Positions 10,601 through 19,600 of a stretch of DNA of 64,000 bases are shown here, one piece after another; positions within the stretch are counted from its first letter, which is position 1, and every line of letters starts with the position of its first letter. The translations under genes and the position numbers were made by a program. The stretch is from Bolinopsis microptera (Eukaryota > Ctenophora > Tentaculata > Lobata > Bolinopsidae): contig NC_087074.1 in the NCBI RefSeq assembly GCF_026151205.1, positions 9,643,226 to 9,707,225 of the forward strand. Reading direction: 5' to 3'. The notes under the pieces were generated by a model. The model saw only the letters and a list, made by a program, of their open reading frames with translations. It ran no database searches and was not told where the DNA came from.

Positions 10601-13600
10601 GAACAACAACATCGACTACAGACTATTTAAGAAAGAGACTGATGCCAGGCTTTACCTTAATACTGATAGTTTCCACCCAAACCACGTCTTTAAATCAGTA
10701 GTATTCTCACAGATGATCCGAGTGATCAAGCGAAATTCGCAGGATCACACATGTGTGGAGGACCTGGAGGAACTTAAAGAAGACCTAATGAAAAGTGGAC
10801 ACAAGGAGGGGACCTTAACGGAAACAGAGCCTGAAGCAGTCTTGAGGTCAATAGAACACGATTTGTATGAGAGGGAAGATAAGAAGCCAATCACTGACAA
10901 AGTTGTCTTTTCAGTGAAATTTTTCAAAGAGGTCACTGAACTTAGGAAGTTGGTACACACTACTAGTGAGGACATCAAACAATTATGCGGAGACGTACAG
11001 ATATTGTTTGCACTACGTAAACAGCCATCTATAGGCAACACAGTAGTGCGCAATAGAAAACTCAGTTCGTGCTCCGAAACGGATTCTTTCACCGTCAGCC
11101 AAAACTGTGGCGGGAGAGGCTGTGCAACCTGTCCCCAACTGTTCAACTCCAACGAAGTTATCACTGTCAATGGTTTGGATTTAACTCTGGATTTCCGGTT
11201 GACATGTAAGGACAGCAATATAATTTATGTCGCCCAATGCCAAATTTGTAATAAACTTCCCCAGAGCCTAAAAGACGACACCTATTTCGGCCAAACGGTT
11301 TCTCCATTTCATATCAGAATGAATGGACACAGAAACAAGTTTAAAATTGATAATGAATTGTCATTTGAGAAGTCGGCACTTTCCATGCATTGTTTTCTAG
11401 CGCATAAATCTGATTTCACTATGGGAGTTTTTAAATTAGGTGTAGTAAGAAAAGTCCGACCAACAGCACTTGATAGAGAAGAGAGCATTCTTATTTCAAA
11501 ATTTAGAACTAATATTTTTGGGTTAAATAGGATTGTAGTTACTCGCTGAATAATCTGTTATGCTCTGTTGTCCATTCTACCTAGCACATTGAGCTCTTTA
11601 GTAAAGTTTCAGATTAAAATCTGTTCGAATTTTCAAGTTGTTAACTTTTAAATTGCTTTCATTAGTCTAACCTAATTTTATTTTTATAGGCTAGTGATGT
11701 AAATATACGAAGAATTCACCTATATTTGTGCTGTCTTACTATGTGTCCAAACCAAATTGATTTGACATAGTAATGTAGCTATGATCTCCGATGATCTAAT
11801 GAGGATGATACTATCTCCATACCTTCATACCACCATTCCTTGTTATTAATTATTATAATTAAGAATGTACGGATTTTTAGGTTCAACCGACACTTTGCTA
11901 AGAAACGTTCTGTCACACATCTTTTGGATCTGTTTTCTGTATGTTATGAACTTTTCTAGATACTGAAGATCCTGATGGAGATATTTTTTGTTTTTTAAAT
12001 TAGTAGATTTAATTTGGAGAACATCTTGTAAGGTTCTCTCAATTTAGTCGTACAACCTATACATTAATCATTCAAAACATGTTGATGAGTCTGACTCAAA
12101 TGCTGACACCTAATATGAAGTTCCTATAACCTGGTAACCTGGTAACCTGGTAACCTGGTAACCTAGACTAACAATCCCCCAGGTTGAGTTGACATGTAAG
12201 CAAGGAGCAGTGGAAACAGCACCCCAACTCCTCTCCGACGACCCATGCAACTATGTTAGTGTGTGGGAGACAGCCTACGCGTGTCCCAGTCACTCCATTA
12301 CTGGTAACCAGTGCAAGATCAAGGATGAGGTGACTGGTCTCACGTTTGATGTGACTGGTTTAGCGGCTGAGGCTCACGATATGACGTGAGTTAGATTAGT
12401 GTGTTTCCTTGATATTCCTTCTGAGCAGTTATTTAACACAGTTAGATGTAACATTAGTGTAGTTCTTGTTTTAGATTAGCCTAGTTCTTGTTTTATAGTT
12501 AAGTAAAATTAGCGGGCTTGTCACCCCTGATCCCATGGCAACATTAAATATATTGATGGCTAATAGGGCAAACAGCGACCACCGCTTAAGAGCCGTTTAA
12601 GAGCCGTTTAAGAGCCGTTTAAGAACCGCTTAAGAGCCGCTTAAGAACCGTTTAAGAACCGGCTAAGAACCGGCTAAGAACCGCTTAAGAACCGCTTAAG
12701 AACCGGTTAAGAGCCGGTTAAGAGCCGGTTAAGAGCCGGTTAAGAGCCGATGAGCGGCCGCTTAAGAACCGTCTAAGGACCGCTTAAGAACCGCTTAAGA
12801 ACCGTTGAAGAACCGCCTCTAAAACTGCTTAAGAACCGCTTAAGAACCGGTTAAGAGCCGGTTAAGAGCCGGTTAAGAGCCGGTTAAGAGCCGATGAGCG
12901 GCCGCTTAAGAACCGGTTAAGAACCGCCTATAGAAAACAGATTTATAAATCTACTAATAAACTTAGAGCCGTTTAAGAACCGGTTAAGAACCGGATAAGA
13001 ACCGGCTCTTAACCGGTTAAGAACCGCCTATAGAAAACAGATTTATAAATCTACTAATAAACTTAGAGCCGTTTAAGAACCGGTTAAGAACCGGATAAGA
13101 ACCGGCTCTTAACCGGTTAAGAACCGCCTATAGAAAACAGATTTATAAATCTACTTATCAACCTAGAGCCGGATAAGAACCGGCGCGGCTCTTAACCGGT
13201 TAAGAACCGTTGTAGAACCGTCTCTAAACACCCTACACGATTGCTAAACAAGTAAACAGTGAGAAGTTTGTAGACAAAAATTCTCCCGTAAATTTCAGAC
13301 TTTTAATATGTTAATTTTCAGATTTACAATTGGTTAAGAATGAATAGACGATATTTCATGAATAAATTGAAGTAATAGTTATAATGTACATCAATTACTG
13401 TGTTAAATCAATTACAATGTTAAATTACAGAATGAGTTTACAGATAAATCAGTATCCCGCCAAGGGTACCAATGCCACCCCATCTATGTTCAAGGTCTTC
13501 AGCTTCTGTTGTCCGGAAGTGGTGTTGAGGACTGCTGCCGCCAAGGTCTTGGCACGCTTCAGGTTGAGAGTGCTACCGTGGTGTCGTAGCGTCTCCTTAA

Positions 13601-16600: not shown

Positions 16601-19600
16601 ACGTGGTTTCATACGAAGCGGCACGTGAAGAGAGGCCATGGACGGGTGAGAAATGACGGAAAAGCTCTTGCTATCGCACTCTACGAGTTTATGTGGATGA
16701 GAAAACACGGTCTCACTCGCTCTGATCCTGATTGCCGGAGACTTTTCAACAGAGAACTACCACTTTTGATGAAAAGACTGTTTGCATAGTTATAACGTGT
16801 GATAGCGAAGTACTGAATGGATTGATATAATATTTTAATTTATCTGTACATTAAACTCGTTTTGTAATTCAACGTTGTATCTCAGACAATAATTGATCGA
16901 CTATTACTATTCGATTAATCATTTATGTAATTTATTAATCTACCTATGAAATTTCGCCTATTGATTCGAAATAAATTGAAATTCTAACAAAATTGAAGTC
17001 TTAATAATTGCATCTGCGCACTATAAGACATGCATCATGAAATATTGTGATTTGCATCGCGATATTGGGTCGAGCCGTCAGGCGAGATGCTAATAGCAAT
17101 ACAATTATAACAAAAGTGAGGTGCTATTGCCAACATTGTTACGTACGTCAAAAACTACTAACCTAGTCTAAAATGGGGAGGGAGGGGAGTGGAGAGGTGC
17201 TGGGACGGGAGTGGGGGTAAAGACACGAGAGGGAGCAGGGGAGTGGAGAGATGCTGGGGCCGGGAGCGGGGGTAAATACAAGAGAGGGAGCAGGGGAGTG
17301 GAGAGGCGCTGGGGCCGGGAGCGGGGGTAAAGACGAGAGGGAGCAGGGGAGTGAAGAGGTGCTGGGCTGGGAGCGGGAGTAAAGACAAAAGAGGGAGCAA
17401 GGGAGTGGAGTGGTGCTGGGCCGGGAGCGAGGGAAAAGACAAGAGAGGGAGCAGGGGAGTGGAGAGGTGCTGGGTCGGGAGCGAGGGTAAAGACAAGAGA
17501 GGGAGCAGGGGAGTGGAGAGGTGCTGGGTGGGGAGCGGGAGTAAAGACAAAAGAGGGAGCAGGGGAGTGGAGAGGCGCTGGGGCCGGGAGCGGGGGTAAA
17601 GACAAGAGAGGGAGCAGGGGAGTGGAGTGGTGCTGGGCCGGGAGCGAGGGTAAAGACAAGAGAAGGAGCGGGGGAGTTCAAATGTGCTGGGCCGGGTGTA
17701 GGGTGTTTACATGTAGTTTTAGAGACGGTTCTTCAACGGTTCTTAACCGGTTAAGAGCCGGTTCTTATCCGGTTCTTAACCGGTTCTTAAACGGCTCTAA
17801 GTTTATTAGTAGATTTATAAATCTGTTTTCTATAGGCGGTTCTTAACCGGTTCTTAAGCGGTCCTTAGACGGTTCTTAACCGGTTCTTAAACGGCTCTAA
17901 GTTGGTTCTTAGGTTGTTTAAATGCAGTTTTAGAGGCGGTTCTTCAACGGTTCTTAAGCGGTTCTTAAGCGGTCCTTAGACGGTTCTTAAGCGGTTCTTA
18001 AACGGCTCTAAGTTGGTTCTTAGGTTGTTTAAATGCAGTTTTAGAGGCGGTTCTTCAACGGTTCTTAAGCGGTTCTTAAGCGGTCCTTAGACGGTTCTTA
18101 AGCGGCCGCTCATCGGCTCTTGACCGGCTCTAAACCGGCTCTTAACCGGCTCTTAACCGGTTCTTAACCGGTTCTTAAGCGGTTCTTAGCCGGTTCTTAG
18201 CCGGTTCTTAAACGGTTCTTAAGCGGCTCTTAAGCGGTTCTTAAACGGCTCTTAAACGGCTCTTAAACGGCTCTTAAGCGGTGGTCGGTCTTTGACCTAC
18301 TTCCCATATTGATTATTGACTCTGTAGTCTGTTATATCGCTCTCTCAAATTATTTGATATATTATACCTATTTATATATAGTAACTTGTTAAAAGTATTA
18401 AAGTTTGTGTTCGAAATATTCTGAAACAGTTAGATTCCAATACAGGCTCGGGCTAATTATCGAAAAATTATTATCAAAAATATCAAAATATATGAAAGTT
18501 AATGATGATGTTAAGTCCACAATTGTAGTTTAAGTCTATCACTTCCTCAGACTTCTGGACGGCACTACCCTTTCACTCCAGATTTGTGGTAGTTTGTCTG
18601 AAACAACGTGTGGTCAGGGTGTTAGTGCCTGTCGGTCTGATGGTACCGTCTTGGGGTACACCAGCAAGGGGGACCTCTCCAGCAGCAAGGTTCGTGATGT
18701 GGAATTTTGTTTTGGAGATAGATCTTCTTTTGTTTTTTGGAGCAAATTTAAAATAACTTTTTCTTAGCTGAGAGGAATTTTTTCCATGTTTCACCATCTA
18801 ACTTCTATCATATTTTCAGCTTCATTTCTCCAACCGACAACTAGCTATAGGAATGAACGGAGCAAATTGTCAGGCGGGTCAGGACTACCGAACTCTGGTC
18901 GAGTTTATGTGCGAATCAGATCCTGCTAAAAGTTAGTCAACGTTTTTAAAAACTGACCTCTAGTCTTGGCAGTTCGTGTTGCAAATCTCGCTGTACATTT
19001 TAGTTTTACACAGGGTTTAAAGGTCACCTTAGGATCTGAATAACCCGTGCTCATTTAACAACCACATGATAATTGATTCCACCACGTGTTCCGCTCATTA
19101 GCAATCCACGTGATAGTAATTATATTTCAGAGAGTGTTACAGCTGTTCCAGTTGGTAATTGTACCTACTATGTTATCTGGACAGACCCCGCTGCCTGCCC
19201 TATGTATCCTATGGAGTGTGCTGTTAACAACGGATCTCACAGGTTAGTTGCATGGTGTTAGATGGTGTTAGATGGTGTTAGATGGTGTCACACGGTGTTA
19301 CTCGGTGTCACTTGGTGTTGCATTGTGTTACGCTATGAATATAGGTCTTAGTCCTTTTATTATATTGTACGCTATATTTCAGATACTTTAGTGTGTCAAA
19401 ACTTTTGAGTACCAAAAATTTGGGCAGGAAATTCGGGATTGTTTGGGCGACGAAAAATTTGGGTATTTCCTGCTCAACAAAAATAGTAGCTTATCTTATT
19501 TACATATAGTGTCGAAGGCAGTCAAGGAACTGACATTGAAGGCAGTGGATGACCAACTTATGAATTTTAGGCATATATTGCGAATATAATATTTCACCCG

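Follow-up and report, generated by a model that had tools for sequence, protein, structure and literature searches.

A divergent second gene in Merlin transposons of the ctenophore Bolinopsis microptera and its possible role at the transposon ends

The window analysed here, a stretch of 64,000 nucleotides from the ctenophore Bolinopsis microptera (assembly GCF_026151205.1, contig NC_087074.1, positions 9,643,226 to 9,707,225 of the forward strand), holds a DNA transposon of the Merlin superfamily at positions 12558-18305. Next to its transposase gene lies a second gene of opposite orientation, which encodes a protein with a CCHC zinc knuckle. In three families of this genome, which we call A (that of the window), B and C, a divergent gene pair lies between GG ends and encodes an IS1595-type DDE transposase, which is conserved, and an accessory protein that evolves faster; this two-gene association is firmly established.

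The inverted ends of the window's element start with GG and align over about 563 bp at 91%. Its flanks carry a perfect 8-bp target duplication, ATATTGAT (12550-12557 on the left, 18306-18313 on the right), and the single pair of inverted repeats with one 8-bp duplication noticed in a preliminary description of this DNA is borne out. Of 20,000 pairs of positions drawn at random at family A loci, 11 agreed perfectly over 8 bp. The left terminal inverted repeat region (12558-13260, plus strand) starts with GGCTAATA and is made of 11-bp units, ACCGCTTAAGA and variants, together with 100-bp higher-order repeats. The right one (17700-18305, minus strand) is likewise an 11-bp array and starts, read inward, with GGGAAGTAG. 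The motif TTAAGARCCG is found 31 times in the left terminal region, 25 times in the right and nowhere in the window outside the element. A 54-bp tandem repeat of 9.5 copies (17183-17696, plus strand) is also internal to the element.

The second gene (13449-14243, minus strand) is a genuine, intact frame of 264 codons, as previously described, and its knuckle fits the motif C-X2-C-X4-H-X4-C. The knuckle occupies residues 20-33 (C20, C23, H28, C33; 14145-14186, minus strand) and is followed by a second putative zinc site at residues 47-77 (C47, C50, C74, H77; 14013-14105, minus strand), a Pro/Ser/Thr-rich linker and a conserved C-terminal domain at residues 160-264 (13452-13766, minus strand). 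According to the type of CCHC protein we distinguish, besides families A, B and C, families D (L015, L024, L025), E (L011, L022) and F (L016, L026). The eight Cys and His residues of the knuckle and of the second C-x2-C ... C-x2-H site are invariant in all seven aligned N-termini, which represent the six families. Pfam zf-CCHC is listed for all seven of these N-termini, including the window's (scan up to E 10; best 0.00045), and the first aligned member reaches 17.6 bits, below the cut-off of 20.8; when the window protein was scanned as a whole, no Pfam family was listed. After the zinc part comes a Pro/Ala-rich linker of variable length, which in family C is a 24-bp minisatellite. The last ~100 residues could be aligned in seven sequences, among them two near-identical pairs; G, L, R, I, A, E and L are invariant there. 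Judged by eye, this domain resembles a helix-turn-helix, and it is predicted to bind DNA.

The plus-strand frame 16013-16789 matches DDE_Tnp_IS1595 in a Pfam scan (E 7.1e-14), as do all four aligned transposases of families A-C. The catalytic residues D95, D158 and E195 proposed in the preliminary description sit in the motifs VEIDESK, IITDKWK and NTIEGTW, and the acidic columns of the complete triad are invariant in the four aligned transposases. An intact sister transposase of 312 residues lies in copy L056 on C5; its DNA is 99.0% identical to the window copy over 1093 bp. Because the match of the window transposase to L056 begins only at residue 64, its apparent TTG start is judged not to be genuine: the gene (16038-16789, plus strand) is 5'-truncated and, by this alignment, lacks its first 63 codons. 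A tblastn search of the element with the first 90 transposase residues gave no other match better than E 1.7. The truncation coincides with a deletion or replacement scar (15907-16037) of 131 bp, against about 560 bp, including the transposase N-terminus, in sister copy L054. From the comparison with L056 and L054, the window copy therefore consists of a whole second gene and a truncated transposase. The transposases also share an N-terminal C-x2-C ... C-x2-C pattern, and Zn_ribbon_IS1595 was unmatched in four of them at E up to 1. A transposase profile gave no meaningful match against the PDB, and the transposase alignment matched three loci in viral contigs (L075-L077) at 26-33% identity; the window's accessory protein had no match in viral contigs. 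Homology of the accessory C-terminus or zinc part to the transposase was considered and rejected, the profile comparisons being negative.

The window's own family is strongly eroded. Its left end has 49 matching stretches in the genome. All 20 loci that were fetched have at least one end and 15 have both; among these two-ended copies, ten have perfect 8-bp duplications and the other five match in 1, 2, 2, 3 and 6 of 8 positions. Mapping of the unique core onto the 20 loci revealed internal deletions, with 13 loci lacking any core match, and most other copies also lack most of the transposase. L050 retains 440 bp, the 3' part of the CCHC gene, at 100% identity, and L056 retains 1093 bp with the intact transposase and has no accessory gene. 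The expectation that copies with the same ends also carry the CCHC gene thus fails in family A, where none of the 20 other loci holds the whole gene, and in a genome-wide search with the CCHC protein the C-terminal piece in L050 was the sole other close match. Such internal deletions are the usual decay of DNA transposons, and by itself family A would be compatible both with an element of two genes and with one of a single gene plus a passenger.

The decisive evidence comes from other families. Genome searches returned 23 matches to the CCHC protein and 105 to the transposase, several of them adjacent. Four family B copies of 3.4-3.5 kb (L069-L072), with ends GGTAACTCGG, have GG at both ends and perfect 8-bp duplications in every case; each contains, within its common ends, a 337-codon transposase frame, open in all four, and a head-to-head CCHC gene, open in three and frameshifted in L072. 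These copies were chosen because both genes matched there and are not a blind sample; the pairing is nevertheless not caused by this selection, because they are all the near-full-length B-type transposases that were scored. Other family B loci with the CCHC gene are L013 (open frame, partial transposase), L019 (open frame, no scored transposase match nearby) and L021 (truncated); the duplications of L013 and L019 are not perfect. In family C, the divergent CCHC gene accompanies five of the seven near-full-length transposases. The five loci L036-L040 have the same 318-codon frame and an identical GG end in differing flanks; one end per locus was read, inverted repeats and duplications being shown for families A and B. 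Five family C transposases do not differ in protein sequence. The family C CCHC protein, followed to its stop in one copy, has 330 residues. The two-component Merlin proposed earlier is therefore borne out in families B and C.

Counted over all families, nine of 15 near-full-length transposases (all scored rows covering at least 290 of 315 residues) are preceded, on the opposite strand and at 430-788 bp, by a CCHC N-terminus, where 0.0011 would be expected per transposase within 4 kb on either side. The pairing table behind this count holds 58 of 125 transposase matches (126 of 149 candidates scored), 38 of 42 N-terminal and 56 of 93 C-terminal CCHC matches, and three more from the first CCHC search.

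These recurrences bear on the idea that the CCHC frame is foreign to Merlin, either because two unrelated elements overlap or because the frame is a chance antisense one. The broken transposase of the window and the want of a whole CCHC gene in other family A copies would fit it. In family B, however, the pair is found again inside single terminal inverted repeats flanked by perfect 8-bp duplications, and family C shows it head to head; the CCHC frame and the transposase have no overlap, and N- and C-terminal CCHC matches fall on one open frame of 278-432 codons at 12 places. The four family B copies refute the idea in practice, and we regard it as most improbable. A separate insertion of the CCHC gene, which had been named as an alternative, is ruled out by families B and C because its position and orientation recur there.

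Several loci show rearranged versions of the pair. A truncated transposase lies on the same strand as the CCHC gene in a family D copy and at three other places; these were counted as rearranged and excluded from the head-to-head pairs. The family D copy (L024 and L035; G000:C4:5818900-5824309) has inverted repeats of about 850-1080 bp and an apparent internal inversion. Same-strand pieces are C-terminal at four places on C6 and N-terminal at one place on C8 (L016; G000:C8:14456835-14460113), where an open frame joins the accessory N-terminus to an N-terminal fragment of the transposase, apparently through a deletion. CCHC and transposase fragments of several families are dense in G000:C6:15350000-15850000. 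At G000:C7:2037405-2045864, a CCHC N-terminus lies in a frame of 731 codons, and 8 kb downstream a frame of 2080 codons contains the C-terminal domain; this is perhaps a hugely repeat-expanded accessory gene or two unrelated pieces. Locus L073 has neither a CCHC frame nor a long frame.

The two proteins have diverged congruently. Family A stands apart when shared columns are compared, both in the accessory protein (29-33% identity, against 49-51% among B, C and D) and in the transposase (57-61% against 64-68%). The family D CCHC genes are 54% identical to family C, and the identities among families B, C and D are so similar that they give no finer order. Between families, dN is 0.53-0.99 for the CCHC gene (A, B, C and E) and 0.28-0.44 for the transposase (A, B and C), and therefore the accessory protein evolves faster.

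Such a history can be set against that of a passenger gene which an ancestral Merlin acquired a single time and which serves a function outside transposition, for instance as a Gag-like knuckle that packages or binds RNA. The zinc knuckle is indeed the sole recognisable domain of the protein, whose best PDB profile matches are retroviral nucleocapsid knuckles (best E 0.011); with a full-length profile, PDB matches lay mostly in the linker and were not used. It is the knuckle motif by itself that suggests RNA binding. A passenger would hardly be expected to remain in at least three diverged families, at the same place and in the same orientation, and to diverge congruently with the transposase; the second, non-knuckle Cys/His site and the C-terminal domain are conserved as well, and the Pfam matches listed include no Gag capsid family. 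We consider a passenger improbable.

The terminal arrays offer a further common feature. Tandem Repeats Finder identified 11-bp units in families A (ACCGCTTAAGA), B (GCACACCTCGG) and C (ACATTAAGACA), and autocorrelation did so in family D; the unit sequence differs between the four families and the 11-bp period is common to all. A lag of 11 was best in all six ends tested from families A-D. It was also best in every one of the 30 terminal segments of 300 bp from 15 family A and B copies, against one of 30 flanking segments, and in 9 of 360 random 700-bp window segments outside the element. These 30 segments, drawn from two families, are not independent, and the sample amounts to four families; the 15 copies do not include four short two-ended family A copies (L059, L060, L065, L068). 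Between the genes, repeats are short in family B and in the window, and 79 bp long in family C. A constant period with differing units is what would be expected from helically phased binding by a family-specific protein.

The window contains a second inverted-repeat element at 35511-39393, with GG-starting ends GGACCTTTACTGATAGTT, a perfect 8-bp duplication AAACAATC and 10-bp arrays at both ends. Apart from one across a TG microsatellite, it has no open reading frame of 100 codons. Its left end is matched at more than 90% in dozens of places across the genome (40 of 251 candidates scored), and the element is possibly a non-autonomous Merlin-like family.

Taken as a whole, we favour, with some reserve, a reading in which the window holds one family A copy of a two-gene Merlin lineage whose second gene provides an array-binding accessory cofactor. 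Its parts are not equally secure. The accessory protein is likely to act in transposition; that it does so as an array binder has about an even chance. In this mechanism the transposase would perform cutting and joining, and the accessory protein, probably by means of its C-terminal domain, would bind one unit of the terminal arrays at each turn of the helix. The zinc modules and a disordered linker would supply further DNA or protein contacts, and the accessory protein would pair the ends, recruit and import the transposase, or do both. The window copy would be mobile only with transposase supplied in trans, for example from L056 on C5, because it encodes the accessory protein and an incomplete transposase. 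More tentatively, and with slightly less than even odds, this may be a new type of accessory protein that assembles once per helical turn, protein and array co-diversifying while the 11-bp geometry stays fixed; in this reading, spacing would therefore count as much as sequence in the recognition of the ends.

The same protein could instead be a regulator, bound to the arrays or to the intergenic region that both genes share, which either represses transcription of the element or shields it from silencing. The head-to-head genes of the paired B and C copies do share an upstream region, with 430-788 bp between the matches, and the derivatives L013 and L019 keep an open CCHC frame with a partial transposase or none; a precedent is found in the consulted part of PMC2613891, where, in defective Spm/En elements, TNPA bound to subterminal domains is reported to obstruct RNA polymerase. 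The long arrays nevertheless stand at the termini, the expected site of a transposition complex, and only short or 79-bp repeats lie between the genes. A regulatory role, which is compatible with that of a cofactor, seems to us unlikely as the explanation of the second gene.

Beyond the state of family A and the outcome of its CCHC search, several observations weigh against the favoured reading of an array-binding cofactor. Six of the 15 near-full-length transposases have no detected CCHC partner: L056 (family A), C5:242422 and C4:14168853 (family C), and three of a 38-39% identical lineage (C1:6155483, C8:17502718 and C4:3521652), with one stop codon each, which may be single-gene. Among the 43 shorter transposase rows, 28 have no CCHC match within 4 kb, six have one upstream on the opposite strand (the window included) and nine have one on the same strand. 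Profile searches with the C-terminal ~100 residues yielded chance-level matches only, in Pfam (CCDC106, E 0.03, in two of seven sequences; DUF7069, 0.13; HTH_7, 0.23, in one of seven), NCBIfam (best 0.032) and the PDB (best 1.3), and therefore the DNA-binding reading is one made by eye. Near-helical-turn periods could also arise from slippage and descent, as an inherited geometry; the 10-bp arrays of the element at 35511-39393, which lacks substantial frames, mean that arrays of this kind are no proof of this particular accessory protein.

The test for selection on the CCHC gene likewise gave a divided answer. Constraint is seen in the pair B69/B71, with 13 synonymous and 8 nonsynonymous changes (dS 0.063, dN 0.014; Fisher p 0.001). 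The other pairs with B71 have synonymous and nonsynonymous counts of 11/11 (p 0.029), 13/12 and 13/12, and the six pairs without it, with 1-4 synonymous and 1-3 nonsynonymous changes, carry little information; dN equals dS in one of these and is about half of dS in two. The family B signal rests on the single branch of B71, whose pairs are non-independent, and comparisons between families have dS at or close to saturation. The purifying selection looked for is thus visible on one branch, the remaining pairs being weak.

Upstream of the element, the window holds a 686-codon open frame (9489-11549, plus strand) with no Pfam match at E 10. Judged by eye, it looks like a Penelope-like reverse transcriptase that terminates in a GIY-YIG-like part.

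The available part of PMC8101967 defines Merlin by its transposase domain, GG ends and 8-9-bp duplications, and reports Merlin matches in three ctenophores, preserved Merlin open reading frames in Beroe and Pleurobrachia, internal tandem repeats in Merlin families, inverted repeats of 24-462 bp and a C-terminal ZZ zinc finger in some copies of one family. Merlin had been described as generally single-gene in the preliminary description; the same part of PMC8101967 says this of the bacterial IS1595 family and not as a criterion for membership of Merlin, and it does not mention a second Merlin gene. Literature searches that covered few subscription papers and no Repbase entries showed no two-gene Merlin among the papers listed. 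The elements described here resemble Merlin, the eukaryotic relatives of IS1016 and IS1595, in their DDE_Tnp_IS1595 domain, DDE triad, 8-bp duplications, 5'-GG termini and internal tandem repeats. They differ from it in the divergent second gene with conserved Cys/His modules in families A, B and C and in ends of about 563 bp made of 11-bp arrays, which exceed the range given in that part of PMC8101967.

Second proteins are well represented in other superfamilies. In the sections consulted of PMC4482050 and PMC9179366, most candidate autonomous elements of PIF/Harbinger, ISL2EU and Nuwa have two open reading frames, for a DDE transposase and a second protein, the latter being far more divergent than the transposase in Harbinger. 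According to the section of PMC9179366 at hand, the Harbinger Myb-like protein binds the ends and aids import of the transposase, and duplications are generally of 3 bp, unlike the 8 bp found here. The second protein of Harbinger, ISL2EU and Nuwa is of the Myb/SANT or YqaJ type, in contrast to the CCHC knuckle and C-terminal domain described here, and no Myb/SANT family is among the Pfam matches listed for the accessory protein. In CACTA elements (En/Spm, with TNPA and TNPD), as far as the excerpt of PMC2613891 goes, TNPA recognises the subterminal repeats of Spm/En, such repeats diverge between families, and an accessory protein thus acts on family-divergent repeats beside a transposase. CACTA ends and a three-base duplication in that excerpt contrast with the GG termini and 8 bp of the present elements. 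As precedents, the second proteins of Harbinger and CACTA are analogous only. Kolobok lineages belong to another transposase superfamily and have nucleases, a helicase or KolX as accessories. With retroviral Gag and nucleocapsid only the knuckle matches, no capsid family being among the matches listed.

Merlin transposons of Bolinopsis microptera may still have much to offer. If they include a lineage with a conserved second gene, this would be a further two-component solution besides those of Harbinger, CACTA and some Kolobok elements. Five identical family C transposases indicate that recently mobile copies may exist, and a two-gene lineage would make the recognition of transposon ends by Merlin and IS1595-type transposases accessible to testing. 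The fixed 11-bp geometry, combined with the turnover of its units, would provide a natural experiment on how a DNA-binding protein and the array that it targets evolve together.

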